IMG/VR virus record: IMGVR_UViG_3300024261_000006
Span: 1-64,000 of that record
Origin: a virus
DNA: 64,000 nucleotides
Strand: one strand, 5' to 3'
Below are positions 4,501-53,711 of this stretch, piece by piece. Under the pieces are notes generated by a model, which made no database searches, was not told where the DNA came from, and was given only the letters and a program-made list of their open reading frames with translations. The number at the start of each line of letters is the position of its first letter. Position 1 is the first letter of the stretch. Position numbers and translations under genes: made by a program.

Positions 4501-4501
4501 A

Positions 4502-4984
4502 TTAGTTTACCGAATATATTGTAACATGGGGACATGATCCAACTCCTTCTGAGTATTCAACATTATAAGATCTGCCAATTGTAAATTCTGTAGTGGTGTT
4601 ATAAGATCTTCCTGCTAGCCTTATTTTTCTTGAACCTGACCATGTGGGTATTGAAAATACCCACATGTAGTTTGACCAAACATGGTCTGTAATAGAAGAC
4701 CATGAGCCGCACATTAGCTTAGTGCCATCAAAATCAGACCATGAAGAGCCACCATCAGTTGAATATTGAAGCCTAGAACAAGTGTATGACCCTGTGCCGT
4801 CAGGATTCCATGAAGTTTGTAAATTACATTCATAAATGACTTTACTAGAACCAACTGTGGGTGTATAAGTAACTTCTGTTCCAGGGTAATACTCTATTGT
4901 TGTTGAAACTGCTTCTTTTGTGAAAGCAGTGTCAACATTGTGAACAAAATTAGAAAAATTTATTGCATCTACTAAATAACTCAT
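4502..4984 (-). CDS. Fibre-like cassette protein C, copy 2
   Basis: This 160-residue protein is the first gene of the downstream cassette. It shares with 5978-6463 the segments YSTDGGSSWS (YSADGGSSWS in copy 1), GSRKIR-[LI]-AGRS, T-[IV]-GR and a PHV-[TS]-IYSV end. The common core with families A and B (a Y-T-P strand, V-x-YE, and a W-S-G-x-[RK]-x-[IL]-R-[IL] strand) shows all three families descend from one ancestor. About 36 AT-rich bases separate it from the first cassette. Confidence 0.65.
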   Translation of the reverse strand: MSYLVDAINFSNFVHNVDTAFTKEAVSTTIEYYPGTEVTYTPTVGSSKVIYECNLQTSWNPDGTGSYTCSRLQYSTDGGSSWSDFDGTKLMCGSWSSITDHVWSNYMWVFSIPTWSGSRKIRLAGRSYNTTTEFTIGRSYNVEYSEGVGSCPHVTIYSVN

Positions 4985-5020
4985 GTAATCCTTTCTTTTT
5001 TTATTTAAATATAAATATGC

Positions 5021-5500
5021 TCAAACAGAATATACTAATAAGCTTGTATTGCAGAATCTGTCTGTAACAGATCCAGCGCCGTCCCAATCTGTAATTGCGT
5101 GATAGTTGGCGTCATAATTAGCTATATGTGAAGCTGACCTGAGCCTTAAGTCTCTAGATCCCGTCCAAGAAGGAATTATAAATCTATAATACAGGTAATC
5201 TCTCAAGTATGATCCAGCAGGACTCGAACCAAAATTTCTTCCATACTTAGCATTTATAGCAGACCAGCTGCCAGTGTTATGCTCTAATACAATGTTTTGA
5301 AAACAAGACTTGTTTAAGGCTTCTACATAAAATCCTATTTCATATATTACATTGCTTGCACTTGCATCAGGAGTATAAGATATTTCTGATCCATTAATAG
5401 TTACCCATGAGTTTGAACTAGTAGACGTGGTTTGTGCTGAAGTGTTTTCTGTTACTACTGCTTGTGTGTTTTTTCCCCAACGTGTATTTACATAAGTCAT
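5021..5500 (-). CDS. Fibre-like cassette protein A, copy 1
   Basis: This 159-residue product is family A of the first cassette copy. Diagnostic segments are GSEISYTPD, VIYEIGFYVE, WSAINAKYGRN, RFIIPSWTGS, ITDWDGAG and the end LLVYSV, all mirrored at 3522-4007. N-termini of the two copies are much less alike than the cores, as expected if the N-terminus is specialised for attachment to different partners. It is separated by one base from family B upstream. Function is inferred only. Confidence 0.65.
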   Translation of the reverse strand: MTYVNTRWGKNTQAVVTENTSAQTTSTSSNSWVTINGSEISYTPDASASNVIYEIGFYVEALNKSCFQNIVLEHNTGSWSAINAKYGRNFGSSPAGSYLRDYLYYRFIIPSWTGSRDLRLRSASHIANYDANYHAITDWDGAGSVTDRFCNTSLLVYSV

Positions 5501-5501
5501 T

Positions 5502-5981
5502 TTATACCTCGAAAATAATCAAAGAAGTGTCAGTATAGTTTGTCTCAGCGACGCCATCAAAATAATCAGATTGATGTAACTGTGGTTCTAGAGAGCTAGA
5601 ATAAGCTCTGCATACTAGTCTTAACTCATAAGCACCATCAAGACCATTAATTACAAAAAACGCTGTGTTATATCTATAAAGATGATCAACAGCTGATGTC
5701 AGATCTGAGGCTATGTTGTAATTTGCACCCTCTACATCAGTAATATTGCTCGAGAAACTATCTGTGCTTTTTTGAAGCTTTATATGCAAAAACCATTTTG
5801 AGCCTGTAGTTCCATCTATTTGTATATTATATCCAAACCTGTATACTATTTTACTATTAGAATCTACTGTATTTATAGAACCTCTAGATCCTGTTATCTC
5901 AACATAAGTGTCATTTATTGATTGTTTTGCAGGTGAAGAATTCTTCTTAATGTTGACTTGCTTTTTATTCATATATGTCAT
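5502..5981 (-). CDS. Fibre-like cassette protein B, copy 1
   Basis: Family B of the first cassette, 159 residues. TYVEITGSRGSINTV, IVYRFGYNIQ and HIKLQKSTDSFSSNITD match the paralogue at 4009-4500. Its start overlaps the stop of the upstream C gene by four bases, giving strong coupling. It ends ETNYTDTSLIIFEV, like the other copy's LSVMEI end. It is beta-rich, lacks cysteine clusters and has no export signal, consistent with a cytoplasmically assembled virion part. Confidence 0.65.
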   Translation of the reverse strand: MTYMNKKQVNIKKNSSPAKQSINDTYVEITGSRGSINTVDSNSKIVYRFGYNIQIDGTTGSKWFLHIKLQKSTDSFSSNITDVEGANYNIASDLTSAVDHLYRYNTAFFVINGLDGAYELRLVCRAYSSSLEPQLHQSDYFDGVAETNYTDTSLIIFEV

Positions 5982-6463
5982 AACGTCACCGAATATATTG
6001 ATACGTGTGGAGGTGCTGCAGCGCCCTCAGCACTGTGAGCATAATATTGTCTTCCTACAGTAAAATCCTGAAATGTGGTGTGAGATCTTCCTGCAATTCT
6101 TATTTTTCTCGAGCCAGACCATGAGTCCAATATAAAAGTATAATTTATATTCATCCAGTCATGATCTTGAATACTGCTAAATGTACCTTCAAGTATTTTA
6201 GTACCACTAATTGTTGACCAACTTGAGCCGCCATCAGCTGAATACTGAACTCTAGTACATAGATACGATCCTTGAGGATCTGGATCCCAAGAAACTGTAA
6301 AGTTAACCTCATAAACAACACTTTCAGCGTTTTCAAAAGGTGTATATTCTATTGCTGTACCACTGTACGCAACTAAGGATGTAGTTATTACTTGCTTAGT
6401 AAAGTCTGTTGTATTTACTAAAAATTCTTGTTTATTTACAGAACTTGATCTAATGTATGACAT
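5978..6463 (-). CDS. Fibre-like cassette protein C, copy 1
   Basis: First gene of the minus-strand cassette array, 161 residues. It shares YSADGGSSWS, WSGSRKIRIAGRSHTT, TVGRQYY and PHVSIYSV with the protein at 4502-4984. Upstream, between 6464 and 6527, is an AT-only inverted repeat (AATAAAAAT / ATTTTTATT) separating it from the nuclease gene. A weak AGAAAG precedes the ATG. Same inferred role as the other cassette members. Confidence 0.65.
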   Translation of the reverse strand: MSYIRSSSVNKQEFLVNTTDFTKQVITTSLVAYSGTAIEYTPFENAESVVYEVNFTVSWDPDPQGSYLCTRVQYSADGGSSWSTISGTKILEGTFSSIQDHDWMNINYTFILDSWSGSRKIRIAGRSHTTFQDFTVGRQYYAHSAEGAAAPPHVSIYSVTL

Positions 6464-37310: not shown

Positions 37311-40300
37311 TTATCGTGTTTCAGCACCTAGATTTCTTGAACCATACCTAGAATCAGTTCCAGTGTTATTTGAAGGATCTTGAGCTTGACGTCTTTGCAA
37401 CGTTGTTATATGTGAAGTTAAAGCATAACCATCAACTGTTACGATAACTTGAGGATCACCACTACCTGCTTCAAGAAAATTTTTCAAACTTTTCATAACT
37501 TCCTTAGCATCCTTATTGTCTTCTTTTACTCTCTCAATTAGTGCTACAACATCTTCTCTGTCTAACTTTCCACTATCACCGCCGTAAGAGGCTAGATCAT
37601 TAAGAGTTGTATTTCTCATATATGCTTTAGCATTGGTATTATACTGATATTTAAAATCATCGTCACTCATATTACTGTTTTGGAGAGCAACCCACGACAT
37701 TGATGTTTGATTTTCTCCTAACACTTCATTTAACCCTTCGTTTAAAGCTGGAACTCCTTGTGATCTTTTAAGTTGACTCATCATGTTTTTAAAGACCTCG
37801 CTATTTTTCATTATATCTTTAAGACCTAAAAATGCAGATTCATCGGCTTGAGGTGAGCCAAAAAAAGCTGCTGTCTCACTAGCTAAATAGTCACCAGCCA
37901 TTGCAGCTATTGGACCAGTTAAAGCTGAAAAGAAACCTGCACCGAGAGCTGTACCAGCAATGCCGGCTATGGTTGAAGCTGACGCTGACCAAGCAGAATT
38001 TGTAGTTTGATCACTCAAAGCTTCATCAAGAATAGCTAGACCTTGGGCTTCAGTGATCGCGCCTTCTGATACGAAATGATCAATTAAGTTTACAGCAGAC
38101 TGATAATTTGCATTTCCTAGATAAGCCTCAACGCCAACATTTAAAAGAGGAACAGCTTTTCCAGCTGCTTTTGCTGCATTTTTAAACTTGCCAAGAGTTG
38201 TCGCTGCAGCCTTTGTGCCTCCTTTAAAAGCGTTGTTTGTAAGGAGAGTGCCACCTTTATAAGCAGAATCTACCATGGCACTACTGCTAGAAAATCCTAA
38301 AATATCTCGAGGATCTGTGTTTGGTTTTTGATCACTGTTTATAACTGCTCCAACATTTCCACTTCTAGCTTTTCGGGCTTTATTTAAAAGATTTTCTCCC
38401 GTTGTAGGGCTTTGAGTTCTGCTCAGGCTTGTACCTTTACTTACATTAGCTCTTTCAGCTTCCTCCTTTGTCAGCTTTGTTTTTGATCTAGTTATATAAC
38501 CGTTTTTTTCTAACCAAGACTTAGCTGATGTCATTATTGCGTCAACCATTTTTCCAATTGATTTTGAAGCTTTTGACATGCCTTTCATAATATGCTCTCC
38601 TATATTTTCAAGAGAATCACGTATTTTTTTGTTTTCTGAAAGTTCTTTTATTTTTTTTGTTAAGCTATCAAACAAACTTGAAAATATTCCATCGCCTTCT
38701 TTGATCTTAAATACTTCTTTAAACTTATCTCCTAATCTTTCAAAAAGTCCTTTTTTTCTTGCTACTTTTTGTATTTTCGTAGGAAAAAGCGTTAAAGAAT
38801 TATCAATCATAGACCCAAAGCCTTTTTCATATGCCATTTTTTCTTCTGGCCCAAACAAATAGTCTTTTATTGAGTTAAAAGAAGCTTTAAGTCTTTCTAA
38901 CAATTGATTACAATCTTTTGTACTCATACCTAAAAACTGAGCAAAAGTATCAATATTTACTGCTTCACTTATTTTTCCTGACGTAAGCCAATTGACTACT
39001 CCTTCAAAAGCATTGCCTAAACCTTTAACAATTCCAGGGCCAGCTAGAGCTATAGCTCTAATTATGTATTGAATCATTTGGCCAGATGCTTTAACAAGTT
39101 TACCAATGAATCCTTGATCATCTAACAACCTTTGCAAGCTAAACAAGCCACTAATTTTATTATCCCATTTTCGCTGTATGTCAAACCAGCTAGCTCCTGT
39201 TAAGCATAGTTGTGGGTCCATTATATCTTGTACGAAAAGTTTTACGTTTTCAACAACTTGCATTTTTAACAATCTTAGACTATCAACGCTAAATGCATCA
39301 TTTATTTTATTTAATACTTCGTCAAAAGGCTCTAGGATTTTATTTAAATCTTCTTTTTTAATTCTTAGACCTTCTTCATAAAAGCTTTGCATATTTTTGC
39401 TAACTTTTCTCATTGTCTTGCCGAGCTTGCCTGCGTACATTATTGTATTTGTCAAACCATCAAGAAATGCTGTAAAGAAGTCTTTCTTTTGCATGATCTT
39501 TAATTGCTCTTTCATTGACGAAGACATATCTTTCATTGCTCTTATCTGGCGCTCTTCAGGCTTTTGATCATTCATTATCTTTTTTATGTCTTCGAAAGAC
39601 TTGCCAAGTGTTCTATAGTTCATAGTTGTCTTGAGAGCTTCTACAGACATTCCTGTATGAGAAGCCATCAATGATTTTTCATGCCTGTTTAAATCTTCAA
39701 AAGACCTGCCTGTTGCAAGCATTGACTGTCTAAACATTTCAACTATTTCCATAGGATCTTCAGCTCTAATAAGCTGCAATGCGTCAATATTCATTCCAAA
39801 TGTTTGAGAAAGCAAAGCAGCACTATTAGCTGCATCTTCAAATGTACCGAACTTATTAAATACACCTGCAAGATCTTTCATTTCAACACCCATTTGTGTT
39901 GCTCGAGCAGCTACTTTCATAAGCTCAATTTCTGAAAGGTGTCCAAAGTTTGTGATATCTTTTCTTAATTGAAAGAAGTTCTTTGACAAAAGTTTTCTAT
40001 TCACGCCAAACTCATAACTTGCAGCGTCAGATGCTTCTTTCATTCTTGTCATTGTAACGTAATAGTGCTCGCCATTTTTTACTGCATCTCTCATAACATA
40101 TGCAATATCATCTGCAGCCATCCCCATGCCTTTTGTCATTCTTGTAAAAAACTCTATAGACGTAGCAGACTTTGTCGTAGAATCAGCAAATACATCGGCA
40201 TATATACCCATATTATTTATGCCTTGTGACAGCTCTCTAATCATGTTTGCAGCACCTTGCGCGCCAAATCCGAAAAGCTTTGTCATTGTACTGTTGACAC

Positions 40301-41075
40301 TCTGGAAAGAAAGCAAAGACCCTTCTGCAATTCCTCTCAATTGTGTCATTGACTTGCCGCCGTTTGACATTAAGTCAAAGTACTCTTTTGTGTCTTCAGC
40401 TGCTTGTCCAATAACTTCAACTAATTCTTGTCTTAATTTATTACCCATCTCTGCTGCTCTATTAGCAATACCTACAGGTAAAGTAACTAAAAACTTTGAT
40501 ATTTTTGTTGCAGTTGTTAAAACAGAAGACAATGATCCTACAATAAACTTTGTTATTCCTGTGCCTATTGCAACAACTCCCTTTACAGCTGAACCTACAA
40601 TGCTACCAATTGTTTTAAACATGCCCCCAACTAGTGATGTCATCCCGTCAATTGAGATTAGAAGTCTTTTTGCTCCATCATCTGCATTTTTAAATGCAGA
40701 GCCCCATGATCTTATATTTTTCGTTATATCTAAAAACTTTCCAGATATTTTTTTCATTCCCGTAGCATCGAATAGTTTGCCTAATAAACCTCCAGAAAAC
40801 TTGTCGATCTGCTGTGCTGAAACTGCTATTCCTCCTACAGCTTTACCATAGTCACTCATCATTTGAGAAGCGTTTCTAATTACATTAGGTACTTCACCAA
40901 GCTTTTTATTTGTTTCGTCTACAGCTTTAGGTATTTTACTTATTGCTTCACTGACTTTTACAAGATCATCAGCACTAAAGCTGCCGACAGATCTGCCGCC
41001 TCTTGTGTTTTGTTGATTACCTTCTTTAAGCAAATTAACAATATTGCTAAGTAATTCTACTTGTCTATTTTCCAC
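37311..41075 (-). CDS. Tail tape measure protein
   Basis: The 1254-residue protein is the longest mostly helical protein here, with hydrophobic central helices (LVGGMFKTIGSIVGSAVKG, and GIAGTALGAGFFSALTGPI). Regularly spaced amphipathic helices (ATQMGVEMKDLAGVFNKFG; LLSQTFGMNIDALQLI) and glycine/alanine-rich C-terminal segments complete it. Its place after sheath and tube genes and a likely frameshifted chaperone pair is the tape-measure slot. By the common 1.5 Angstrom per residue rule it predicts a tail near 190 nm, an inference. It forms the tube core and may enter the host. Confidence 0.9.
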   Translation of the reverse strand: MENRQVELLSNIVNLLKEGNQQNTRGGRSVGSFSADDLVKVSEAISKIPKAVDETNKKLGEVPNVIRNASQMMSDYGKAVGGIAVSAQQIDKFSGGLLGKLFDATGMKKISGKFLDITKNIRSWGSAFKNADDGAKRLLISIDGMTSLVGGMFKTIGSIVGSAVKGVVAIGTGITKFIVGSLSSVLTTATKISKFLVTLPVGIANRAAEMGNKLRQELVEVIGQAAEDTKEYFDLMSNGGKSMTQLRGIAEGSLLSFQSVNSTMTKLFGFGAQGAANMIRELSQGINNMGIYADVFADSTTKSATSIEFFTRMTKGMGMAADDIAYVMRDAVKNGEHYYVTMTRMKEASDAASYEFGVNRKLLSKNFFQLRKDITNFGHLSEIELMKVAARATQMGVEMKDLAGVFNKFGTFEDAANSAALLSQTFGMNIDALQLIRAEDPMEIVEMFRQSMLATGRSFEDLNRHEKSLMASHTGMSVEALKTTMNYRTLGKSFEDIKKIMNDQKPEERQIRAMKDMSSSMKEQLKIMQKKDFFTAFLDGLTNTIMYAGKLGKTMRKVSKNMQSFYEEGLRIKKEDLNKILEPFDEVLNKINDAFSVDSLRLLKMQVVENVKLFVQDIMDPQLCLTGASWFDIQRKWDNKISGLFSLQRLLDDQGFIGKLVKASGQMIQYIIRAIALAGPGIVKGLGNAFEGVVNWLTSGKISEAVNIDTFAQFLGMSTKDCNQLLERLKASFNSIKDYLFGPEEKMAYEKGFGSMIDNSLTLFPTKIQKVARKKGLFERLGDKFKEVFKIKEGDGIFSSLFDSLTKKIKELSENKKIRDSLENIGEHIMKGMSKASKSIGKMVDAIMTSAKSWLEKNGYITRSKTKLTKEEAERANVSKGTSLSRTQSPTTGENLLNKARKARSGNVGAVINSDQKPNTDPRDILGFSSSSAMVDSAYKGGTLLTNNAFKGGTKAAATTLGKFKNAAKAAGKAVPLLNVGVEAYLGNANYQSAVNLIDHFVSEGAITEAQGLAILDEALSDQTTNSAWSASASTIAGIAGTALGAGFFSALTGPIAAMAGDYLASETAAFFGSPQADESAFLGLKDIMKNSEVFKNMMSQLKRSQGVPALNEGLNEVLGENQTSMSWVALQNSNMSDDDFKYQYNTNAKAYMRNTTLNDLASYGGDSGKLDREDVVALIERVKEDNKDAKEVMKSLKNFLEAGSGDPQVIVTVDGYALTSHITTLQRRQAQDPSNNTGTDSRYGSRNLGAETR

Positions 41076-41123: not shown

Positions 41124-41375
41124 TTACTTCCTATTAAAAAGTCTTCTTGCTGTAGTATTTGCATTATTTTTAGGTGGAGGCGCATTTGACCTCTGCCTCT
41201 TTTCATTTCTCTCTTTCATTTCAGCGATATATTTGTTTATAAACCACGTTCTTTTCCAAACAGGCAAATTATAAGCATCATAATAAGTAAAGCCTAAATG
41301 TCTAATTAATGCATAAATATACTCTAAGATTATGTCTTTATCTTCAGGTCTCAGGCCAAAAAAACGAAGGACCAA
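41124..41375 (-). CDS. Downstream frame of gp26-like / tail chaperone pair (likely frameshift extension)
   Basis: This 83-codon frame has no ATG; it can begin only at a TTG (41375) inside the previous gene with no good Shine-Dalgarno, or be entered by frameshift. It reads FFGLRPEDKDIILEYIYALI and RHLGFTYYDAYNLPVW, then a basic Pro/Asn-rich tail. It overlaps the end of the gp26-like gene across a run of seven T's. In many long-tailed phages such a frame next to the tape measure is the T part of a G/GT tail-assembly chaperone. Confidence 0.7.
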   Translation of the reverse strand: MVLRFFGLRPEDKDIILEYIYALIRHLGFTYYDAYNLPVWKRTWFINKYIAEMKERNEKRQRSNAPPPKNNANTTARRLFNRK

Positions 41376-42186
41376 TTGGTAGGTCTACCTCACTTTCTTC
41401 AAAGCAGCTGTTACATCTAAGATCACCCTTCATAACAACACCAGGCTCTTGATTATCTAAGAACTTTCTAAGAGCTAAAGAATCTCTAACAGGCATATTC
41501 TTGACAAAGAAAGAAATCTTATTCTTGTTTGTAATGCTGTCAACAGACTCAATACATCTAGTAAGTCTATCTGTGATACCTGTATCTGTACTCAAGCCTT
41601 TCTTTTTCTTTCTTTCGTTGATGATCATCATCTCTTTTTCATCATGACCAGTTAAAAACTTAACTCTAACACTTTTCTTTGTCACAGGTAAAACTACTTC
41701 AAATAAATTCTCGCCAATTTCTACAGGCTCAACTTCTAGACGTTTAATAGGTAGCTGCGAAAGATCAAACTCTGTCTTGTTTGTTGCACCACATTCTGGG
41801 CAAGAAACTTCAATGTTATAATCAGCACCATATCCAGTAATTCTCAAAGCAACCATTAGCGCTGTTCGATCTCCTGAGATAAGATCTTCAGAGTTAATCC
41901 TCTTATCAACAAGACAAGAATCAATAAGCTTTGAAATAACAGTCCCATCCTTGATGTAAGCACGAGAAGTTAAAATGTCTTCTTCTCTTGCTGTCATTGG
42001 TCTAATCTGCAATGTTTCTTGACCATGAAGAGGACTATCTGCAGGATAAATCATTCCCAAAGAAGGTAATGGCACGCTTTCAACAGCAATCTCTAACCCA
42101 AAATCATCTTTTGCAACATTTGACTTTTGAATCGGACCAGAATCTTTAATTTCAGCAGGATTAATAGGCTGATCTAAATTATTCAT
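41344..42186 (-). CDS. T4 gp26-family baseplate hub/assembly protein
   Basis: The 280-residue protein has PLPSLGMIYPADSPL, IRPMTAREEDILTSRAYIKD, GDRTALMVALRITGYG and a four-Cys zinc knuckle (CPECGA ... CNSC), all in the order of the T4_baseplate (gp26) family. The frame stops shortly after PSFFWPET but a frameshift would extend it. In T4 gp26 is a hub assembly protein. Here its position before the tape measure would also suit the tail-assembly chaperone role. Confidence 0.8.
   Translation of the reverse strand: MNNLDQPINPAEIKDSGPIQKSNVAKDDFGLEIAVESVPLPSLGMIYPADSPLHGQETLQIRPMTAREEDILTSRAYIKDGTVISKLIDSCLVDKRINSEDLISGDRTALMVALRITGYGADYNIEVSCPECGATNKTEFDLSQLPIKRLEVEPVEIGENLFEVVLPVTKKSVRVKFLTGHDEKEMMIINERKKKKGLSTDTGITDRLTRCIESVDSITNKNKISFFVKNMPVRDSLALRKFLDNQEPGVVMKGDLRCNSCFEESEVDLPIGPSFFWPET
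41358..41364 (-). promoter_or_regulatory. Candidate programmed +1/-2 frameshift site (seven-T run)
   Basis: The upstream frame reads TCG TTT TTT TGG CCT GAG ACC TGA. A +1 or -2 shift on the T-run gives TTT GGC CTG AGA CCT and enters the 83-codon frame. A -1 shift reaches TGA within three codons. Location directly upstream of the tape measure matches conserved frameshift sites; Mu is known to use -2. Confidence 0.6.
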
Positions 42187-42208: not shown

Positions 42209-45200
42209 CTATATAGATGGTATCATTATATCTATTGATGATATTTCTGTTAAATTATTTTGAGTAGAATTTATTATTTCATCTAAAGAAAGTGCTATAA
42301 TATTATTATCTAGCTTGCCAAACAAAGATATTCCAATTCTACTTCTAAGAATATAATCTAGATAATCTTCTTTTTCTTTGTTAGATGTTCCTGTATTTAA
42401 TTTAACAAAAAAGTCTCGTATAATACCAAGATCTACATATGATTGAAGTAAAGTATTCAGTCTAAAATTTAATAAAGTATTTATATTATTTACTTTTGCA
42501 TTATTATTAAACAGCAAGTCATTCTGAAATATCATATACTTTATGTTCTTTTTTATATTTAAGATTATTCTTGTATTATGTGCAAATCTAGATAAACTAT
42601 TTCTTGTTATTAAAGATGTATTTCCTGAATTTAACTTTATAATATTAGAATCATTAAAGATGCTTTTTGAAACTACAAAGTTAGCATTTGTTTCAGATTT
42701 CAGACTAAATTTAATTAACTTACTATACTCATCTGTATCAGGAGAATTCAACGAATTATTAATAACTCTCTTTACCTCTATTAAAGAATCATTAAAAGAA
42801 TTAACATTGTCAACTGGTCCACTAGCAATACCACTAGCAAAAGATTTAATTGCTATAAACGCAGGCATAACAACAAATCTTTTATCTTCATAAAGCTCGT
42901 TATCTAAAAAACCTTCTGATGTATTTAAAACATTTAACGTATATCTATTATCATAATAATTATTTTTAATACTATCTAAAGAAGTCATAGTACCAGAATC
43001 TATATACTTGCCAATATTAGGTTTTGTTTTAAATCTTTCATTTACATCACTTTCTCCAGGTTCTATGTAAAAGTGATTATAATCTTTTATAATACCCGCA
43101 GAAGTTGGTATGTTGTTAATACCTGTATTGTCTACATGATTACTATATTCTGGAGAGTTTAATACTGTTAGATATCGACCTTTTTTATTTGCTTCAGTAG
43201 ATATTTTCTTATTTAAATAATGATGGCCTATAGTGGGTATAGACAATATGTCAAACTCTGAATTGGCGTCATCAACCATTATATCGTGTGCTTTTTTGTA
43301 AGTAAAATATGTTGGTCCTTCAATTTGACCATTTTGATTTTCGTCTTCTAACTCTTTTACTAATGCTGTTTGACTCATTAGCCTTTTATCATTATCTAAT
43401 ATATTAACTCCATCAAAGCCACCACATGTAAAAAAGTCAAATGATAAATATTCTGAATGTATAGAATTGTTTTCATCATCAGACTTTAACAATTCATCAA
43501 TATTAACATACTTGTATTGAATTTTTAGACTACTTAAAGAAGTAATATCACTTATTTTTTTACCATCTCTTCTATACATTGCAATTTCCCAGTTTTTTTG
43601 AACTGGATCATCTTCTTCTGCAGGAATATACATTATTTTTTCTAAATGGAAAAATGAATTAGTTAAGTCACTATCATTATCTTCTAAGTCTCTAACCCAA
43701 ACGTTCTTTGACTTAACTAAATAGTTATCTTGAAAATACTTTGTATACCAGTAATAGTTTCTAAAATTATTACTTTTTTCTTTTTTTATTAATTTAAATT
43801 TATAAACATTATTAAGTATTGTTTTGTCTATTTGTTCTGTACTGATATTATCAAAAAGCACACCCCAATATTTTTCTTTTATTAGTTTATCTTCTTTTCC
43901 AATTAATATATTCCAAACATAATCAACAGGCTTTTGTAAAACATTGTAATTTTCAGGATTAGTAATGCCAGAAGTATTTATTCTAGGATACGGCATAAAA
44001 CCAGAAGGCATTAATTCGTATGATTTTACGTCTTTAAACTCTATTTTTTCGTTTATTTCAACTATTAAATGATTATTTGTTTGTTTGTATCTTCCTGAAG
44101 TTATTACTTCATTTTCGTTAAAATCAAAGTAAGTTTTTTGTGTTCCAAATACAAGACCAATATAGCTTTCACTATCTGGATCTAAATTTAGATCTGTAAA
44201 TTTAAATAGATCTATAAAAGTATTTTCTTTTTTATTGTATTCCCAAACTGCAACGTCAAAAATTGACCAATCTTCTGTTTTTACATTACCTAACTTTTTT
44301 GGTGTAATTCTTATTCTGTATCTATTACTAATTTCTCCATCATCAATTGCATGAAATTTAAATAACTTAACACAATTATTATGCATATTAACTCTATTGT
44401 CAGAAATATTTTCTCTATTTGTAGGCTGAGAAACTATCCAGCTAGTAGACGCGCTTTTATAAGAACTTTGAAAATCTTCATAACTTATTGAGTTAGAACT
44501 ACCGTTAAAAATAAAATTTTTATTACTTTCAAAAGATAAATTATCTAAAAAGTTTAAGCTAAAATTTGCGTATCTTAAGTTACCTTTATCTAAAAAGTAA
44601 CTTAAGTCGTTATTTATATATGATTCTCTAAACTCTCTTTTTTTAACATATCTTATTCTTTTGTAATCTTTCAATACATTAAAGTCTTTGTTGCCAAGAC
44701 CTTTTATAAACAAGTAAGGATATTGTATATTTGTATTAAACGATAGAGTTGCATCGCTAAAACTTTGTAAAACTATATTTTCTCTTAGTCTAACTAAACT
44801 TTGAAGTCCATTTTGTGTGTTGTCTTTTTGTAAAAGAATTTTTGTTCCTTGTGGACAAAACAAAACGTCAGTTATTAAAGATACTGAGCTTTGACTTTCT
44901 CCTATTTGTTCTAGATAATCATTAAAAGGTGCAATTTTTGTAACACCATTTTCAATTCCTGTATACTGCTTATTTTTATAATGACCACCTATAAAGTTAG
45001 TCTTTCCATTACTACCTCCAGCAGTAGCAAACTTATTATATTCAGAATATCCTTCGTTAATACTTCCACTTACAACATTACCACCTACAATAAATCCGCT
45101 ACCTTCAACAATTCCTTCATTATTCGGTATGCCTGTTTTTCCAATCCCTAAAACTCTTGTAAATGCTAATTGCTCTCCTCCCTGATTAAACCACTCTTGC

Positions 45201-45448
45201 GCTGAAAGTGGTGATAGATCAGGATGATCCATATCAAGTGGTGATCCAAATACATTTTCGTATGTGTTTAAAACATCATCACTCTTTCCAAATTCTTGAA
45301 AAGTATGAGGAACAAATGCTGGTCCTTTTAAAGATGTCCCAATAAGCCCTAAAGTATCATCAGTTAAAGAAATTTCATTTTCTTCTTTAAATTCTCTTGA
45401 AGAGCTTTGATTAGCATCAATATTTTCATCATTTCTAAATTGTGACAT
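42209..45448 (-). CDS. Tail sheath-like protein, divergent third copy (1079 aa)
   Basis: The N-terminus GLIGTSLKGPAFVPHTFQEF and YENVFGSP match the two canonical sheath proteins (GLVGPSVRGPAFVP; AVVGPAKRGPAFVP). The C-terminal part, with FAHNTRIILNIKKNIKYMIF, is only loosely like the sheath core. Codons are far more A/T-rich (many Asn, Ile, Lys) than in the other two. It lies after the tube gene, separated from the other sheaths. It may form a special ring such as sheath terminus or baseplate collar. It ends with TAG. Confidence 0.7.
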   Translation of the reverse strand: MSQFRNDENIDANQSSSREFKEENEISLTDDTLGLIGTSLKGPAFVPHTFQEFGKSDDVLNTYENVFGSPLDMDHPDLSPLSAQEWFNQGGEQLAFTRVLGIGKTGIPNNEGIVEGSGFIVGGNVVSGSINEGYSEYNKFATAGGSNGKTNFIGGHYKNKQYTGIENGVTKIAPFNDYLEQIGESQSSVSLITDVLFCPQGTKILLQKDNTQNGLQSLVRLRENIVLQSFSDATLSFNTNIQYPYLFIKGLGNKDFNVLKDYKRIRYVKKREFRESYINNDLSYFLDKGNLRYANFSLNFLDNLSFESNKNFIFNGSSNSISYEDFQSSYKSASTSWIVSQPTNRENISDNRVNMHNNCVKLFKFHAIDDGEISNRYRIRITPKKLGNVKTEDWSIFDVAVWEYNKKENTFIDLFKFTDLNLDPDSESYIGLVFGTQKTYFDFNENEVITSGRYKQTNNHLIVEINEKIEFKDVKSYELMPSGFMPYPRINTSGITNPENYNVLQKPVDYVWNILIGKEDKLIKEKYWGVLFDNISTEQIDKTILNNVYKFKLIKKEKSNNFRNYYWYTKYFQDNYLVKSKNVWVRDLEDNDSDLTNSFFHLEKIMYIPAEEDDPVQKNWEIAMYRRDGKKISDITSLSSLKIQYKYVNIDELLKSDDENNSIHSEYLSFDFFTCGGFDGVNILDNDKRLMSQTALVKELEDENQNGQIEGPTYFTYKKAHDIMVDDANSEFDILSIPTIGHHYLNKKISTEANKKGRYLTVLNSPEYSNHVDNTGINNIPTSAGIIKDYNHFYIEPGESDVNERFKTKPNIGKYIDSGTMTSLDSIKNNYYDNRYTLNVLNTSEGFLDNELYEDKRFVVMPAFIAIKSFASGIASGPVDNVNSFNDSLIEVKRVINNSLNSPDTDEYSKLIKFSLKSETNANFVVSKSIFNDSNIIKLNSGNTSLITRNSLSRFAHNTRIILNIKKNIKYMIFQNDLLFNNNAKVNNINTLLNFRLNTLLQSYVDLGIIRDFFVKLNTGTSNKEKEDYLDYILRSRIGISLFGKLDNNIIALSLDEIINSTQNNLTEISSIDIMIPSI

Positions 45449-45600: not shown

Positions 45601-46089
45601 TTAGTATTGCAATACACAGTTGTCGAATCTAAGATCCATTGTGATTTCCATTGCTCCGTCATCATCGTAGCTAACATCTCCAAAGTTTGCACTTGCAAGA
45701 TATGCGCCCTTAATATCCCATAATTCAACAACAGTACCTACAGGATCAAGCATTTTAAGCTGGCAATCTCTCTTATAGAAATCTGCATATCCACTACGAC
45801 CACTTACAGACTCAAAGTGTGTACGAATCCATTCCATAACTTGTTGTGAACCACTAGGTGCGATTGGATCATAAAGTACAACACTGATATTTTGAAATGT
45901 TGTCTTTCCTGCAAGATAACGAGTACTATTCATAAAGTTAATAGTTGTCTCGTTTGTTGAGTATTGTGGACGAGCTGCTGACTTAATAAGAAAGGCATCG
46001 ATACCTTCAATCGCAAAGATCCATCGATTCTTTCTTTTTGGCTCAAACTTATTTGGAATCATTTCCGTGACTGAAAGTGTCTCTGCCAT
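45601..46089 (-). CDS. Tail tube protein (gp19-like)
   Basis: The 162-residue protein has KNRWIFAIEGIDAFLIKSAARP, then TINFMNSTRYLAGKTTFQNISVVLYDP and a C-terminal DDGAMEITMDLRFDNCVL, the plan of T4 gp19 tubes. Length matches. AGGAG precedes the ATG. It is encoded right after sheath B, as usual for sheath-tube pairs, and polymerises around the tape measure. Confidence 0.9.
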   Translation of the reverse strand: MAETLSVTEMIPNKFEPKRKNRWIFAIEGIDAFLIKSAARPQYSTNETTINFMNSTRYLAGKTTFQNISVVLYDPIAPSGSQQVMEWIRTHFESVSGRSGYADFYKRDCQLKMLDPVGTVVELWDIKGAYLASANFGDVSYDDDGAMEITMDLRFDNCVLQY

Positions 46090-46126: not shown

Positions 46127-49100
46127 TTAATCAATTGAGTTTGTTACAACAAAGTCTAAAGAAATAAACTCTACAGACTTGGTAGGCTGCAAGTAAATCT
46201 TTCCTCTAATCGTGTTGTTTTCAACGTCATTTTGTGTTGTTGTAGAAGTATCAATTTGGACTTTATATCTCTCAACACCTTGTCTAGCCTGCACATCTGC
46301 CATGATTGGTTCAACTAGTGAACTAAATCTTGCCAACGTTGATGCTCTATTTGGCTCAAATAACAATGTATTAGCAATTGCCTTAACTCTTCTACGAATG
46401 TTAATCAAAAGTCTTCTTACATTAACTCTATCAAGCGCTGACTGATTTTGAAGTAGTGTCTTCTGTCCAAATGCATAAACTTCTCCTGCTCTGCCAGCTG
46501 GCTCATAGATAGGATTGATATCAGCATCATAAAGATCGTTCAAAACATCTCTGTTCATCTGAACTTTTGAGTTAACTGCATTTAATCTACCTCTTGTAAG
46601 ACCTGCTGGAGCAAACCAAGGATCAGCCAATGTATCATTTTGACTCATAACGCCTAACATGCAAACTGATGGTGGGACCTGTAATGGCGAACCATTCGAT
46701 GGTCTTCTTGTCAAAACATCAGGAAAGTATGCTGCAGCAAATGATGTGTCAAGATTTCTAGCATCAAACTTAGTTATAATATTTCCTACGTGTGGTTTTA
46801 TTGCAGAATCAAGGATGACTTCGTTACCCTCTTCTATTTCCTGTATATCCATAACTAACATTGCATCAAATCTGCTTTCACAAGCTGTAATTGCATAGTC
46901 AGTAACAAGTGGCTCACGCATATCTGGAATTGCTAGCAACTGGAACTCTGTAGCACTCTTGTCAGATAAAACATCGATTGCTCTCTTGAAAGTCTCAACT
47001 GTTGGTCCTGTGAATAAGCCAGTTGACTCTTCGTTTGCTTCTCTAAATGCTGCTGCTGAATTCATTGCTGCTTTATCTTTATTAAAGATGTTAACACCAT
47101 CAAATCCACCTTGCATTAAGCAACGGAACTTAAGATATCTAACGTTTCTACCAACTTTAGCTGCTTCGCTTAAAACAATATTGCTCTTGCCGCCCAAAGA
47201 ACCTTTTCTAGCATACTCTGATGTTGACCAGTCTAAAGCACTATAGTTTGAAACGCTTGTTAAAACAATATTTTCTAAAGAAAACTTTTCTGTTGAAGAC
47301 AGCGCAAACTTTCCACCAGCATCAGAACCTAAGTCAGGTATGTAAGACGTCCAAGACTTAATACTAGGATTAAATCTTATTTCACCTAATTCATTATGAT
47401 CAGCTGCTGACTTCTTCTTTGCAAACTTAACACCCCAAGCCAACGCGTCAGATGCTTCTTTTACTGTTGAAGAAATAGATCTTGTTATATTCTTTACTAG
47501 GGGTAAAGGTGTTACATGCATTGAGTCAAAAGTAGTTCCAGCTAGTTGAACTGTTCCTGATTCATCGAACAACCCAGTTTTTGCTCTTAGGTTTAATGCT
47601 GTATAGTCTGAGAATCCGCAAGGCAAAGTAGACTTAGGAACGTCAGCAGATTTAACTGCATCTGATAATTCTACTCTTACATATTTGTTTCTAACTTCAA
47701 ACATACCTTCTTCAACAAGTCTTTGTCTACTTAGATCTCTATCGAAGTCATAATACATGTGTTTATCGCCAATAACTCTACCAATAAAGTTTCTGCTATC
47801 AGGATCAAGTGTTAAATTTTTCCAAGCTACTAAAGCTTCTCCACTTACTGGATCACTATAGAAATCTTCTAAAGTTAAGTCAAAGAAACCGTAGTCTTCT
47901 AATGTTGCACCTGCTCTAATGTTAGATATTAAAATTCTAAATCTATCGTTGCCAACAGCACCATCATCTAAAGAGTAAAGTCTAAATAACTTTTGATCTA
48001 AAGATTTTTGTGAAGTAATCCATGGAGATCTAGCAGTTCTAAATCTTGTATCAAACTTTTCAAATGCAGGAGAGTTAGCTGCTTCAGTTGCTCTTGCTCC
48101 TGTTGAGTGCAAGCAGAAAGCTGCGTTTTCTTCAGTTGTTGTTGTTCCTGCCGCTGATAGTACGCCAGAAACATTTACTTTAGCTACTGCAGGATCAATA
48201 TCCCAATGTGAATAAAGATAGTGACCTCTTTCTTCAATTTTTTCTGGATCTGTATTTAACACTTTTGCGAAGTAGTTAACACTTTCAGGATTAAAAGAGC
48301 ATGATAGTTGTGCAGGTTCATCTGTATTGCTAAAACCGTTAAGAAGCAACGTAAAAGATTGATCACTTGATATGTCAACTTTACCAAGCTCATAACCCAT
48401 TAAATGAGTTCCTTGAGTTGATCCAAAGCTCTTGATATTTGCACCACTTGCTGCTGTAACCCTTAGATGAGTTAACTCTGCAAAGCCTCCTCCGTCTGTC
48501 CCGTTAAAAGTATCATCGGTAACGTCTATTGTTGGAACGACACCTTGTGGCGACATAAGAATGCCTCTAACAACTGGTGCTGCTGCACCTCCACCGCCTG
48601 TGAAGTTAACTGTTTTAGGACCAAAGTTGCCTGTAAGTGTATCACCAGCTGGATTTGTAAAAGTAGCTGTATCAGCTATATCTACTACGTTTTTAAGGAC
48701 ACTTTGCAGTTTACCATTTCCAAAATTTAATGTTATCTTTATACTGTTACTATTATCATCTACTAAAGCTGTAACGTCAGTTTTTGTATTAACTGTATTA
48801 GAATGCTTAAGAGCATTTTTAAAATTATACAAAGTTTCTTGTAAGTCATCGCCTATTATAACTGTTATGAAGTGATTATTTGGATCTGATCCATTAAAGG
48901 CAAGAGCAGCTCCTGGATTACCCGTCTTTTGACCGTTAACTCTACCACTTGCATTTGTAACAGATTCAAAGACAAAATTTTCATTAGTAAGACTTGAATG
49001 ATTATTATCAAGTGCTCTAATTTTTATATGATCATTATCATTAGGCTGACCTGTAAGTGTCATTGTAAACGATGTAGAACCTGCATTATCTCCGCCAAAG

Positions 49101-50566
49101 AAAAAACCTGAAGTTCTTCCTGTTCCAAATTCTGCAGTTGCATCTCCCGAAGTTCTATCAGTTGCATCTGATCCTACGCTTATTTGCAAGTTAGAGACTT
49201 GATTGGTTAGTGAAACATTTGCGCTACCAGAGTGATCGGCACGGCCAGCTTTTCCTTTTTGTTTTTGTATTACTGTTAAAGAAAGTCCATCGTCAGAAAT
49301 AGATGTTGTATATTTTCCTGTGTGATTTGAAACTGCTCTATCTAAAGCTGCTTTTAAATTTGCTAGTGCTTGTTCTTTAGTTCCGCTAGCATCAACAAAA
49401 ACAGAGTTAGTTTCATTAGAAGAGTATCTTCCGGTTTCACCTGAAGTTTGATCAGCGTCAGTAACAGATGCACTTTTAAATGCATAAACTACAGTAGCTG
49501 ATGTTAGTCCTCCAAGATTGTCGTTGTCTAACGATTTAAGCTCTAAACTTGAATTATTAGCAGGAACATCTGTAATTGTGATTACGCATTTTGCTCCACT
49601 ACCACCTTCTTGTCCGTAATTAAAAGTAGCACCAGTCACAGAAGCTGTTTTATCACCAACTTTTACCAGTAAGTCATTACCTTCTCCTGCTGGATTTATA
49701 TTAAACTTTGCAACACAGTCATTTGTTTTATTTAAAACATTTGGAAATGCTGACTCTAGTGTTACTCTAGCTAATGCATTATTACTGTTTACGTCTTCAA
49801 CAGCTGTTACTTTAATTTGATGGGCTCCTGCATTTCCTAATTGTGCGTCTGCTTCAATTTTATTCTTTAAGTTTTGAAGTGTTGCAACAACATTAGCGCC
49901 TATTGCAGATTGACCTCCTTCACCTCCAAAAGTAAAAGTGACGTCACCATTAAGATCACCGGTTGTATCAACGCCATCGAGCTTAATTGTATCACCAACT
50001 ATAGGTTGAGCACCTAGTTCAATAACCAAAGTAGCTGCAGCTCCTCCTGTTTGAATTCCTGCATCTTGCAAAAATGTGCTACCTGCTTCATCTTTCATAA
50101 AACAGCCAAGAAAATGTGTTCTTCCTGCTTTTGTTGCACCAACAACATCTGTATTAGCAATTGCTGCATGCGGGTTATTTTGCAAATCATTGCTAGCATC
50201 ATGTGATACCTTGTCACCAACAACAAAGCCAGCTCCTGCTACGCGTCCTGAAGAATCTTTTTGACCTGTTCCACTACCAACACCTAAAACGCGAAGAAAA
50301 GTTCCTGCTTGCGCATTTCTCATCCACTCATTAAGTGCTAAAGGACCAAATCTATTTGCGTTGCTTTCACGATCAACTTGTCTTAGTGAGCCAAAAGTCT
50401 CTTCAAACTGCTGAATTGTTGCAAATGTCTTGGGGACAAAAGCAGGACCTCTTTTAGCAGGCCCAACAACAGCAGCTGGTACTCCTTGAGGCAATTGCTC
50501 CGGATCTCTTACTTGTGATAAATCTATTTCTCTGAGAGTTACTCTTGCTGAGCCTTGTCCAGCCAT
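46127..50566 (-). CDS. Tail sheath protein with large triplicated insertion (1479 aa)
   Basis: The ends are canonical: AVVGPAKRGPAFVPKTFATI near residue 31, and C-terminal ALDRVNVRRLLINIRRRVKA and VEFISLDFVVTNSID, the sheath core that contacts neighbouring subunits. Residues ~171-660 are an extra block, made of three diverged copies of a beta-rich domain (178-275, 325-435, 498-615), each ending in a NLK-x-A/I helix and a D-x-S-I-x-I-T-like strand. These would project from the tail surface. Twice the usual sheath length. Confidence 0.88.
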   Translation of the reverse strand: MAGQGSARVTLREIDLSQVRDPEQLPQGVPAAVVGPAKRGPAFVPKTFATIQQFEETFGSLRQVDRESNANRFGPLALNEWMRNAQAGTFLRVLGVGSGTGQKDSSGRVAGAGFVVGDKVSHDASNDLQNNPHAAIANTDVVGATKAGRTHFLGCFMKDEAGSTFLQDAGIQTGGAAATLVIELGAQPIVGDTIKLDGVDTTGDLNGDVTFTFGGEGGQSAIGANVVATLQNLKNKIEADAQLGNAGAHQIKVTAVEDVNSNNALARVTLESAFPNVLNKTNDCVAKFNINPAGEGNDLLVKVGDKTASVTGATFNYGQEGGSGAKCVITITDVPANNSSLELKSLDNDNLGGLTSATVVYAFKSASVTDADQTSGETGRYSSNETNSVFVDASGTKEQALANLKAALDRAVSNHTGKYTTSISDDGLSLTVIQKQKGKAGRADHSGSANVSLTNQVSNLQISVGSDATDRTSGDATAEFGTGRTSGFFFGGDNAGSTSFTMTLTGQPNDNDHIKIRALDNNHSSLTNENFVFESVTNASGRVNGQKTGNPGAALAFNGSDPNNHFITVIIGDDLQETLYNFKNALKHSNTVNTKTDVTALVDDNSNSIKITLNFGNGKLQSVLKNVVDIADTATFTNPAGDTLTGNFGPKTVNFTGGGGAAAPVVRGILMSPQGVVPTIDVTDDTFNGTDGGGFAELTHLRVTAASGANIKSFGSTQGTHLMGYELGKVDISSDQSFTLLLNGFSNTDEPAQLSCSFNPESVNYFAKVLNTDPEKIEERGHYLYSHWDIDPAVAKVNVSGVLSAAGTTTTEENAAFCLHSTGARATEAANSPAFEKFDTRFRTARSPWITSQKSLDQKLFRLYSLDDGAVGNDRFRILISNIRAGATLEDYGFFDLTLEDFYSDPVSGEALVAWKNLTLDPDSRNFIGRVIGDKHMYYDFDRDLSRQRLVEEGMFEVRNKYVRVELSDAVKSADVPKSTLPCGFSDYTALNLRAKTGLFDESGTVQLAGTTFDSMHVTPLPLVKNITRSISSTVKEASDALAWGVKFAKKKSAADHNELGEIRFNPSIKSWTSYIPDLGSDAGGKFALSSTEKFSLENIVLTSVSNYSALDWSTSEYARKGSLGGKSNIVLSEAAKVGRNVRYLKFRCLMQGGFDGVNIFNKDKAAMNSAAAFREANEESTGLFTGPTVETFKRAIDVLSDKSATEFQLLAIPDMREPLVTDYAITACESRFDAMLVMDIQEIEEGNEVILDSAIKPHVGNIITKFDARNLDTSFAAAYFPDVLTRRPSNGSPLQVPPSVCMLGVMSQNDTLADPWFAPAGLTRGRLNAVNSKVQMNRDVLNDLYDADINPIYEPAGRAGEVYAFGQKTLLQNQSALDRVNVRRLLINIRRRVKAIANTLLFEPNRASTLARFSSLVEPIMADVQARQGVERYKVQIDTSTTTQNDVENNTIRGKIYLQPTKSVEFISLDFVVTNSID

Positions 50567-50606: not shown

Positions 50607-53600
50607 TCAGGGAAATTCAACACCTGCATTAGTAATTACAAAATCAATTGCAATAAATTCGATTGCTCGAGTTGGAACAATAATAATCTTACCATTCAAT
50701 CTGTTGTTGTCAACATCTTCGTCGTTATTATTTGTTTCATCCATAATAACTCTAAAGTCTTCAATTCCTTGCTCTAACTGAATTGTTGCTAATGAACCTG
50801 AAGAATTTGCAATAAAGTTATCTCTTGTTGTCTTGTTGTTTTGCTCAAACAATAGACCTTGTGCAATAATTTCAATTCTACGCTTCACTTCCAAAACGAG
50901 CCTTCTTACGTTGACACGATCCAAAGCAGTTCTTGCTAACTGTGATGTCTTCTGACCAAAGATAACAAATTGCTTGTTAGGGAAGTTTGCAATAGGATTA
51001 ATTCGAGCCTCATAAAGTGTATCACGATCCTCTGCGTTTAATCTTACATCCAAAGACGTAATTGTATTTAGAGCTCCTCTTGTAAATCCAGCAGGAGCAA
51101 ACCAGGGCTGCGAAACCTCATCAGTTTTTGCCAATGCACCAAGAGCTACAATTGAAGAAGGAACCCTGATTGATCTTCTACTGTTTTCTGCAGCTGTATC
51201 ATCATCTCCACTATCCTGAACCATTACGTCTGGGAAATAAGATGCTACATATGATGAATTAACCTCACGAGTATCAAACTTTGATGAAGTTGTATCAACA
51301 TCTGCTCTTCCTGAAGCAATACCTCTTTCATTAACAAATATTCTTGTAGAAGCAGAATCAAACTGCTGAAGGTCCATTACATAAAGCGCTTTACCGTATT
51401 CTTCTACTCTTCGCTTTGCAAAGTCTGTTACGAAAGGATCTCTAACGTTAGGAACAACAAGAACATTATGATTAACAACTAAATCATCTGTCATTAATCT
51501 TATAGCATTCTTATAAGAAGCAATAACGTTATTAGCATCTTCTGAACCTTGCATTACTGCGTTAGTTGTTCCAGCTAAACCACTTGGAAATCCTGATGCT
51601 GTTGCTTTTCCAACTCCTGTTTCTGTAGAAGCAGCTTTGTCTGTCATGAAGTATGAGTCACTGTCTAAAATGTTTAACCCGTCAAAGCCACCATAGAAAG
51701 GTGCTGTAAACTTTGCAACTAAACTATATTTATTAAACTTAACAACATCTTCAGATAATAACTTTGTTAATGTTACGCTTTCTAATTCAGAAGCTAAATT
51801 ATCACTTCCTGCAGCCATCTTTATAGTGTGCTTTGAAGAATCATATATTGTACTTTTATCAACATCTGCATTTCTTATGTATACAGCATTTTTAAATATA
51901 TCGTTTATTGTTCCAGTAATATCTGAAAGCGATGTTTTGTTTAAAGCAACCTTTGCCAAACTAAACTTGTTATTATTATGAGAGTCAGCAATTGCGCCTG
52001 TCTTTACAACATCACCATCAGCTCCTAAGAACTTAGTGTAGTTAGATAATAATTCATTGAAAACTGTGCCACTATTTGGATTATTTATGTCTTTAACTCT
52101 TGTAGGCATTAGTCCCCAGTGTAAATCAAAACTTACAGCTTCTAAAGCTGATGCTTCGCCTGTAAATGTTTGATTATATGAAGAGCCATCTCTAATGTCT
52201 CCCTTTGTTATCTTGAATCTATAAGGAAGAGGTGGTAAAACAGAATGATCTAAATGTGGGGTATCAACAGCTCTTCCTTTAGTAAATAATGTATTAGCTG
52301 TTCTATTGTCTGTTCCACCGGTGTTTAGTAATAACGCAGGAACTCCTCTATAACCAAAAGGAAGAGCTGTATCTGGTACTTCACCCTTTAGTACATCGTC
52401 ACTCATTACAACTCTTGCTCTTGTTGAAACGTTCCTAAACGATCCTTCTCTAACAAGTCTTCTTTCATCAAGATTAGTTGTATCTAAGTTATAGAATACC
52501 TTTTGATCGCCAATAACTCTTGCAATAAAGTTTGTAGCATTTGGATCTAAAGAGCACTGAGTAAATGACTCATAAACTATAGGAGACTCATCAGTGTCTT
52601 TTAAATCTCTTATTGTAACTGTAAATGTGCCAAAATCATTTGTTGGATCTGTGCTTGCATTTAAATTAGATATTGATATCTTATAATTTTCATTTGCATA
52701 AGCTCCATCATCAAGTGACTCAAAGTGAAATAGATCATACTCTTTTTTGCCAAATGGCTGAGAAATAAACTTAGGAGTTTTAGGTGCTACAAATCTACTT
52801 GAAAAATTACCAAACTTTGGTGCATTTGTACTGTCTCCTTGAAGAACTGCAACATTACCTGACCCAACAGAAGCAACTGCGGCGTCAACTGGGAAATGTG
52901 CATATAACATATGCTTTTTATCGTCAAATGAAAGAGGATCTGTATTTAAAACGTTCGCAATATAGTCAGAAGCTTCTGGATCCAAAGAAACTTCATAGCT
53001 AATAGTTGCAGGGCTCCCAATGTTACCTGTTTCTATTAGATATATAGTAAACTTAGAGCTTGAAGCAGCAACATGATCATTACCGGAGCCATTAGCTGTA
53101 ACTGTAGTTGTATAATCTTTATGAGTAAAAATCATTGCTCTTACTAGTTCAACAGTAAAATCAGCAGTACCTCCGCCTTCGCCAATGCCTTCTAGAGGAT
53201 GTGTGCTATCATTTGATGCATCACTGTCTAAGACACCTCCTAATAAATCAGCAGTTGTTGTATGTGAATCATTGTCGTTAAAAATACCAAGACTTAAAAA
53301 CTCTGGATTAACTACTGTGTGTTGAGCTGCAATAAATCTTACTGCGCCAAAAGCTGGTTCTGCATCAGTGTTATTATTATAAGTATGAGTTAGTTTAAAT
53401 CCAGCACCTGCTGATTTATCTGTTGATGAGTTGAAAACTCCTGATCCTAGTGTCCTACAAAATGTTAATGCTTTGCCGTCGTTTCTAAAAAATTCTGCTG
53501 CTGCGTGTCCACTTAGCAATCTTCTGCTAGGTGCTCCAAATATTCTAATAAATTCTTCTCTTGAGTATACTGTAGTGGGCACAAAAGCAGGGCCTCTTAC

Positions 53601-53711
53601 AGACGGTCCAACTAATCCAACTGGTACACTATTATTTCTTACTATAGGTCTTTTAATTACTTCTATTTCACGTTCAAAAAAGCCTGGAGACTTAAATGTC
53701 TGCTCTGCCAT
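50607..53711 (-). CDS. Tail sheath protein, main copy (1034 aa)
   Basis: Starts MAEQTFKSPGFFEREIEV, then GLVGPSVRGPAFVPTTVYSR. The C-terminus has FGQKTSQLARTALDRVNVRR, VKRRIEIIAQGLLFEQN and IEFIAIDFVITNAGVEFP, all sheath signatures. It lies first in the sheath-sheath-tube block. Compared with 46127-50566 it lacks the triplicated insertion. It contracts around the tube during DNA delivery. Confidence 0.92.
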   Translation of the reverse strand: MAEQTFKSPGFFEREIEVIKRPIVRNNSVPVGLVGPSVRGPAFVPTTVYSREEFIRIFGAPSRRLLSGHAAAEFFRNDGKALTFCRTLGSGVFNSSTDKSAGAGFKLTHTYNNNTDAEPAFGAVRFIAAQHTVVNPEFLSLGIFNDNDSHTTTADLLGGVLDSDASNDSTHPLEGIGEGGGTADFTVELVRAMIFTHKDYTTTVTANGSGNDHVAASSSKFTIYLIETGNIGSPATISYEVSLDPEASDYIANVLNTDPLSFDDKKHMLYAHFPVDAAVASVGSGNVAVLQGDSTNAPKFGNFSSRFVAPKTPKFISQPFGKKEYDLFHFESLDDGAYANENYKISISNLNASTDPTNDFGTFTVTIRDLKDTDESPIVYESFTQCSLDPNATNFIARVIGDQKVFYNLDTTNLDERRLVREGSFRNVSTRARVVMSDDVLKGEVPDTALPFGYRGVPALLLNTGGTDNRTANTLFTKGRAVDTPHLDHSVLPPLPYRFKITKGDIRDGSSYNQTFTGEASALEAVSFDLHWGLMPTRVKDINNPNSGTVFNELLSNYTKFLGADGDVVKTGAIADSHNNNKFSLAKVALNKTSLSDITGTINDIFKNAVYIRNADVDKSTIYDSSKHTIKMAAGSDNLASELESVTLTKLLSEDVVKFNKYSLVAKFTAPFYGGFDGLNILDSDSYFMTDKAASTETGVGKATASGFPSGLAGTTNAVMQGSEDANNVIASYKNAIRLMTDDLVVNHNVLVVPNVRDPFVTDFAKRRVEEYGKALYVMDLQQFDSASTRIFVNERGIASGRADVDTTSSKFDTREVNSSYVASYFPDVMVQDSGDDDTAAENSRRSIRVPSSIVALGALAKTDEVSQPWFAPAGFTRGALNTITSLDVRLNAEDRDTLYEARINPIANFPNKQFVIFGQKTSQLARTALDRVNVRRLVLEVKRRIEIIAQGLLFEQNNKTTRDNFIANSSGSLATIQLEQGIEDFRVIMDETNNNDEDVDNNRLNGKIIIVPTRAIEFIAIDFVITNAGVEFP

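Follow-up and report, generated by a model that had tools for sequence, protein, structure and literature searches.

A gene of the gp26 family on the minus strand of the window, the 64,000-nt stretch of IMG/VR record IMGVR_UViG_3300024261_000006 that was analysed, most probably specifies both members of a T4-like myophage's tail assembly chaperone pair, with the long form produced by a +1 slip of the ribosome on UUU_UUU_UGG (probability about 0.87). The site, the open +1 frame, the conservation of both and the paralogy of T4 gp26 and gp51 can be read from the sequences themselves. The phages concerned form an abundant marine group, and their T4-type gene for the tail chaperone would contain a programmed +1 frameshift, at a locus where the usual annotation calls a complete gp26 gene and overlooks the extension.

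The gp26-family gene matched PF12322 (T4_baseplate) at 8.9e-20 (71.7 bits with a cut-off of 24.5, profile positions 12-219 of 219) and phrog_150 baseplate hub at 2e-23. Its 3' end reads CCT TCG TTT TTT TGG CCT GAG ACC TGA, and TTTTTTTGGCCT occurs only once in the 64 kb window. The +1 frame, which is also the -2 frame, was open from 38 nt 5' of the gp26 stop to the extension stop, while the -1 frame was closed by a stop 4 nt ahead of that of gp26. These frames agree with an earlier note on this DNA, in which the small frame overlapped the upstream gene and the run permitted a +1 or -2 shift while a -1 shift would stop at once. The extension was listed as an ORF of 83 codons beginning at TTG 41375, of which the 77 codons from GLRPED onwards would be used after a +1 slip, with a predicted fusion junction of ...GPSFF-GLRPEDKDII....

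Table 1. Features of the putative chaperone locus and its neighbours in the window
Feature	Position	Strand	Remarks
gp26-family gene (putative TAC-N / 'G')	41344..42186	(-)	280 aa; ATG with CGGAGTG upstream; CxxC zinc-ribbon-like
Zero-frame stop TGA of the short product	41344..41346	(-)	four codons past the second TTT
Seven-T run	41364-41358	(-)	
Shift site TTT TTT TGG (predicted)	41356..41364	(-)	zero-frame A-site codon UGG
+1-frame extension (putative TAC-C / 'T')	41127..41357	(-)	77 codons, GLRPEDKDIILEYIYALIRHLGFTYYDAYNLPVWKRTWF...; probably made as a gp26-extension fusion
Stop of the +1-frame extension	41126-41124	(-)	
Probable tape measure protein, 1254-aa ORF	37311..41075	(-)	directly downstream; GTG start, AGGAG; assigned by position and size
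Tail tube, gp19-like	45601..46089	(-)	upstream; assigned by position and PF06841 at E 0.0015, under the curated cut-off

The order of tail tube, gp26, extension and giant ORF is that of the G/GT slot, where the earlier note had also placed the locus. The tape measure identity is positional, as the 1254-aa ORF was without a family match (best phrog_788 tail protein, E 0.011) and homology to the tape measure protein of phage immuto was not detectable by sequence. As expected of a G/GT pair, the gp26-family ORF is overlapped at its 3' end by an ORF in another frame, ahead of the positional tape measure gene, and it ends with a conserved slippery sequence in 81 of 81 sequences. The arrangement resembles lambda gpG/gpGT in that a single gene immediately 5' of that for the tape measure would give a short and a long product, with the shift falling a few codons short of the zero-frame stop and a small C-terminal extension. 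It differs in that the lambda shift is -1, whereas here it would be +1 at [U/C]UU_UGG, and in that the N-terminal domain is PF12322 (gp26), which is not recognisably related to gpG. Mu (-2) and HSTV-2 (+1) use shifts other than -1 for tail chaperones in the same genetic slot.

The tube gene was flanked on the minus strand by genes for three unusually sized proteins resembling sheath proteins (1079, 1479 and 1034 aa; 42209-45448, 46127-50566 and 50607-53711); BLAST related all three to one another and two of them matched a sheath C-terminal domain. A set of five tandem ORFs of 159-163 aa (4009-6463, minus strand) was mostly interrelated at up to 49% identity and had no clear family. A nucleotide search of cultured phages gave no match, and tblastn with the extension as sole query gave none either.

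Conservation was assessed in the best 80 IMG/VR relatives (52-83% identity), which with the window made 81 sequences. TGGCCT was invariant in all 81 and was preceded by TTTTTT in 62 (61 relatives and the window), TTTCTT in 15 and TTCTTT in four. In 80/80 relatives the zero-frame stop followed the site by no more than a few codons, and the +1 frame was open for about 71-93 codons in those whose contig reached far enough. Conservation of the seven-T run, which had been proposed as a check, was borne out in that the run or its TTCTTT or TTTCTT variant, followed by the +1 peptide, was present in all 80 close relatives. The extension peptide was conserved across 69 distinct full-length relatives with the consensus GLTPxDKExxLExIFLLMYYMGFSYxExYNxPIWxRxWFIxRxNKE. 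Synonymous codons varied far less at the site than elsewhere in the gene, and less than expected by chance: among 73 non-redundant relatives the Pro after Trp was CCT in all 73 (CCT usage in the same genes was 36%) and the first Phe was TTT in 69 (usage 60%), whereas at conserved residues across the gene the commonest codon made up a median fraction of 0.46. Retention of the site and of the +1-frame peptide in 80 close and about thirty distant relatives supports programmed frameshifting.

The same frame would be reached by a -2 shift, as documented in Mu (PMC5009743), which would yield SFFFGLRPED rather than SFFGLRPED and which seven Ts taken alone would permit. The variant runs make this unlikely. 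After a +1 move the P-site tRNA can re-pair one base 3' in most variants (UUU to UUU, CUU to UUU and UUU to UUC), including TTC TTT TGG, TTT CTT TGG and TTT C.., and several of these mismatch at -2, so that +1 is favoured. At TTC TTT TGG (the L020, L028, L042, L068 and L179-L193 types) the P-site tRNA is well paired after +1 and mispaired after -2, as it is at the sites of BRock and LuckySocke (CTG TTT CGC and CTG TTT CAG). The earlier candidate of a +1 or -2 shift was therefore upheld as a frameshift, with its direction narrowed to +1.

A slightly poorer prospect is that the extension is an independent gene translated by coupling from TTG 41375, with GAGGT as its Shine-Dalgarno (SD) sequence. 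This GAGGT (about 41387-41391, minus strand) lies 11 nt before the TTG in the window and was kept in 78 of the 81 sequences, its Glu codon being frozen as GAG; the previous description of the frame as lacking both ATG and SD was thus correct for the ATG and slightly overstated for the SD. Coupled starts do occur in the homologues of extracellular-type contractile injection systems (eCIS) and in two distant phage loci, L190 and L194, as described below. However, no ATG, GTG or TTG was found in frame up to 45 nt upstream in 46/81 sequences and the best-shared start position was common to only 16/81. A coupled start would also leave unexplained the frozen TTT and CCT codons and the onset of conservation right past the slip point. 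Transcriptional slippage giving mRNAs one base longer or shorter would suit the seven-T homopolymer of 62 sequences, but it is made very improbable by the other 19, in which the run is broken (TTCTTTT or TTTCTTT, longest T run 3-4) and the +1 extension is kept. Homopolymers are prone to indel errors, but a sequencing error or pseudogene in which a one-base indel had split one long ORF can practically be dismissed, as 80 further contigs had the same arrangement and so did cultured phages, immuto and Mel-JY01 among them.

Under +1 frameshifting, most ribosomes would finish the gp26-family protein as the short form 'G', and a fraction would slip on UUU_UUU_UGG just before the gp26 stop, with the P-site Phe tRNA moving from UUU (41361-41359) to UUU (41360-41358). 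The product would be gp26 with a 77-residue helical extension, the long form 'GT'. On the lambda model, the gp26 portion may coat the tape measure protein while the extension recruits tail tube subunits. Slippage at the T-run, its efficiency and the chaperone function are all points that we infer from sequence comparison. In the prfB context, both UUU_U and CUU_U have been established as strings for a +1 shift, CUU_U being by far the most efficient site and UUU among the next (PMC10885494; PMC5009743). The predicted event resembles that at CUU_UGA of prfB (RF2) in that the tRNA in the P site, on a U-rich codon, pairs again one base further 3', and the TTT CTT TGG variants contain CUU_U itself. 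Unlike the present site, with UGG in the A site, prfB has a stop in the A site and an SD at 3 nt. As a caveat, in E. coli UUU_U is a less effective string than CUU_U, and UGG is a sense codon rather than a stop. A prfB-type SD stimulator about 3 nt upstream was not found, and the only candidate was GAGGT about 25 nt 5' of the P-site codon, for which the spacing is wrong because known SD stimulators sit at 3 nt for +1 and 9-14 nt for -1 shifts (PMC5009743). Downstream RNA structure was not strong in the window clade (mean z -0.46 versus -0.09 in the control) and was moderate in the cyanophage clade (z -1.32 versus -0.18).

Most relatives at about 32-46% identity kept the same site and the +1 extension, including immuto (a Flavobacterium phage, TTT CTT TGG), Mel-JY01 (a Microcystis phage, TTT TTT TGG), L179-L189, L191-L193, L195-L196 and L213-L221. 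The last group came from genome assemblies and included one site of TTT TTT TTC (L219). The distant relatives that mostly kept the site include 16 LR756508-type contigs. In the remoter SP-15, LIS04, SagM-GXN1, BRock and LuckySocke the context was TTT C or TTT A, again with an extension in the +1 frame. A separate ATG for the small gene or loss of the T-run, which the earlier note had held would speak against frameshifting, were seen only in L190 and L194, where both changes occurred together and the extension begins with an ATG 2-5 nt after the gp26 stop. These two loci represent a natural switch from frameshifting to a coupled start, and as the extension is separate in them and in eCIS, fusion is not universally needed.

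In cyanophage-type loci, gp26 ended with the canonical -1 heptamer U_UUU_UUC in 80/80 cases, with TTT TTC kept in 77/77 non-redundant loci, and the open -1 frame continued as the product that annotations call gp51 'baseplate hub assembly catalyst'. The cyanophage pair is like that of the window in its homologous gp26 and extension, linked by a frameshift in the same slot, and unlike it in using a -1 shift at a canonical heptamer. An extension in the -1 frame adjoining T_TTT_TTC was also found in Munch-type jumbo phages and LR756511. Of the cyanophages seen, S-SCSM1 (L093, about position 3680) alone had its extension in the +1 frame, for which a sequencing indel may be responsible.

T4 gp26 and gp51 both matched PF12322 (8.8e-64 and 3.9e-52), and gp51 was about 48 residues longer than gp26. 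The cyanophage extension aligned with the gp51 C-terminus by hhalign at E 3.2e-8 (score 40.7, with a maximum of 18.6 in 100 column shuffles), and the cyanophage fusion aligned with gp51 from end to end (global hhalign) at E 8e-16. The window extension aligned with the cyanophage extension at E 2.4e-4 over 53 ungapped columns (score 24.9, maximum in 100 shuffles 18.4), and profile comparison of the window-type extension directly with the gp51 C-terminus was not significant, so that these two are related through the cyanophage extension. As gp51 consists of a gp26-like domain with a homologous C-terminal extension, T4 carries the short form (gp26) and the long form as two genes, where the window has one gene with a predicted +1 shift. 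No vestigial extension frame was apparent at the end of T4 gene 26. Both T4 proteins are listed as hub assembly chaperones, and the particle is without gp51 (PMC3004832).

A 2016 review described G-T frameshifting as conserved in long-tailed phages with the exception of T4. We dropped the idea that the lack of a G/GT pair in T4 was an open puzzle, as Vladimirov, Gautam and Davidson (2022), as cited in PMC10885494 and PMC12846349, had earlier recognised the chaperones of T4-like phages and their encoding by two genes. The link between gp26 and G/GT drawn in the earlier note is accordingly sound, given the gp26/gp51 paralogy, the likeness of the extension to the gp51 C-terminus and this published work, but it is not new. 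Among T4-like phages, TAC-N genes are known to carry polyT -1 signals (PMC12846349), and the cyanophage -1 frameshift was possibly noted in the 2022 study, to go by the papers citing it. A +1 version in a T4-type chaperone gene seems undescribed as far as those citing papers represent that study. On the same footing, the +1 usage, the switching of direction within one gene family and the link to eCIS and DUF6760 are new here.

Structural models were predicted for the gp26 protein (pLDDT 88) and the extension (pLDDT about 94; helices at 3-20, 24-29 and 32-56). Foldseek against the PDB gave nothing significant for the gp26 model, for which the HK97 tail assembly chaperone 2ob9 appeared at E 4.9 only, or for the three-helix extension model, and PHROG scans of the extension gave nothing solid. 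In the absence of a significant fold match, the chaperone role is suggested by position, T4 genetics and the T4-like work known through its citations; what is proposed is that role and membership of the T4-like TAC family, and homology to gpG is not claimed.

The Pfam family DUF6760 (PF20546) matched the extension in 37 of 54 relatives at E up to 0.1 (best 1.1e-7), with the window extension at 14.3 bits relative to a gathering score of 27. DUF6760 was present in 16 of 247 sampled genomes of one bacterial phylum, and the eCIS cluster examined had the order sheath, gp19 tube, 138-aa ORF, DUF6760, eCIS_core protein, second gp19, CIS_tube and baseplate V. Six eCIS loci had a weak gp26-like C-terminal match (E 1.6e-4 to 8.6e-3) immediately upstream of DUF6760, which hints that the upstream ORF could be a gp26 relative. 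In five of the six, DUF6760 started at a GTG or ATG overlapping the upstream TGA with a G-rich SD before it, and neither codon was at the overlap in the sixth (L235). The eCIS gene is like the extension in its Pfam match and in its place after a short gp26-like ORF, past tube and sheath, and unlike it in being a gene of its own with an SD and an ATGA or GTGA overlap in place of a frameshift.

On balance we lean towards one orthologous chaperone family that has taken four routes to its long-form domain, namely +1 frameshifting (the window clade and, across several host groups, its distant relatives), -1 frameshifting (cyanophages and Munch-type jumbo phages), duplication (T4) and a coupled DUF6760 gene (eCIS, L190 and L194). 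If so, contractile injection systems would possess a split tail assembly chaperone that has gone unrecognised, and a programmed frameshift could change direction with its product kept. Such a natural series bears on why phages need both forms, on how shift direction evolves and on the function of DUF6760 in contractile injection systems.

The comparison also corrected the start of an annotated gene. In the cyanophage S-RIM8 (L094, 3732-3869), the annotated 45-aa gp51 begins at a Met inside the -1-frame extension and is without about twenty conserved N-terminal residues.
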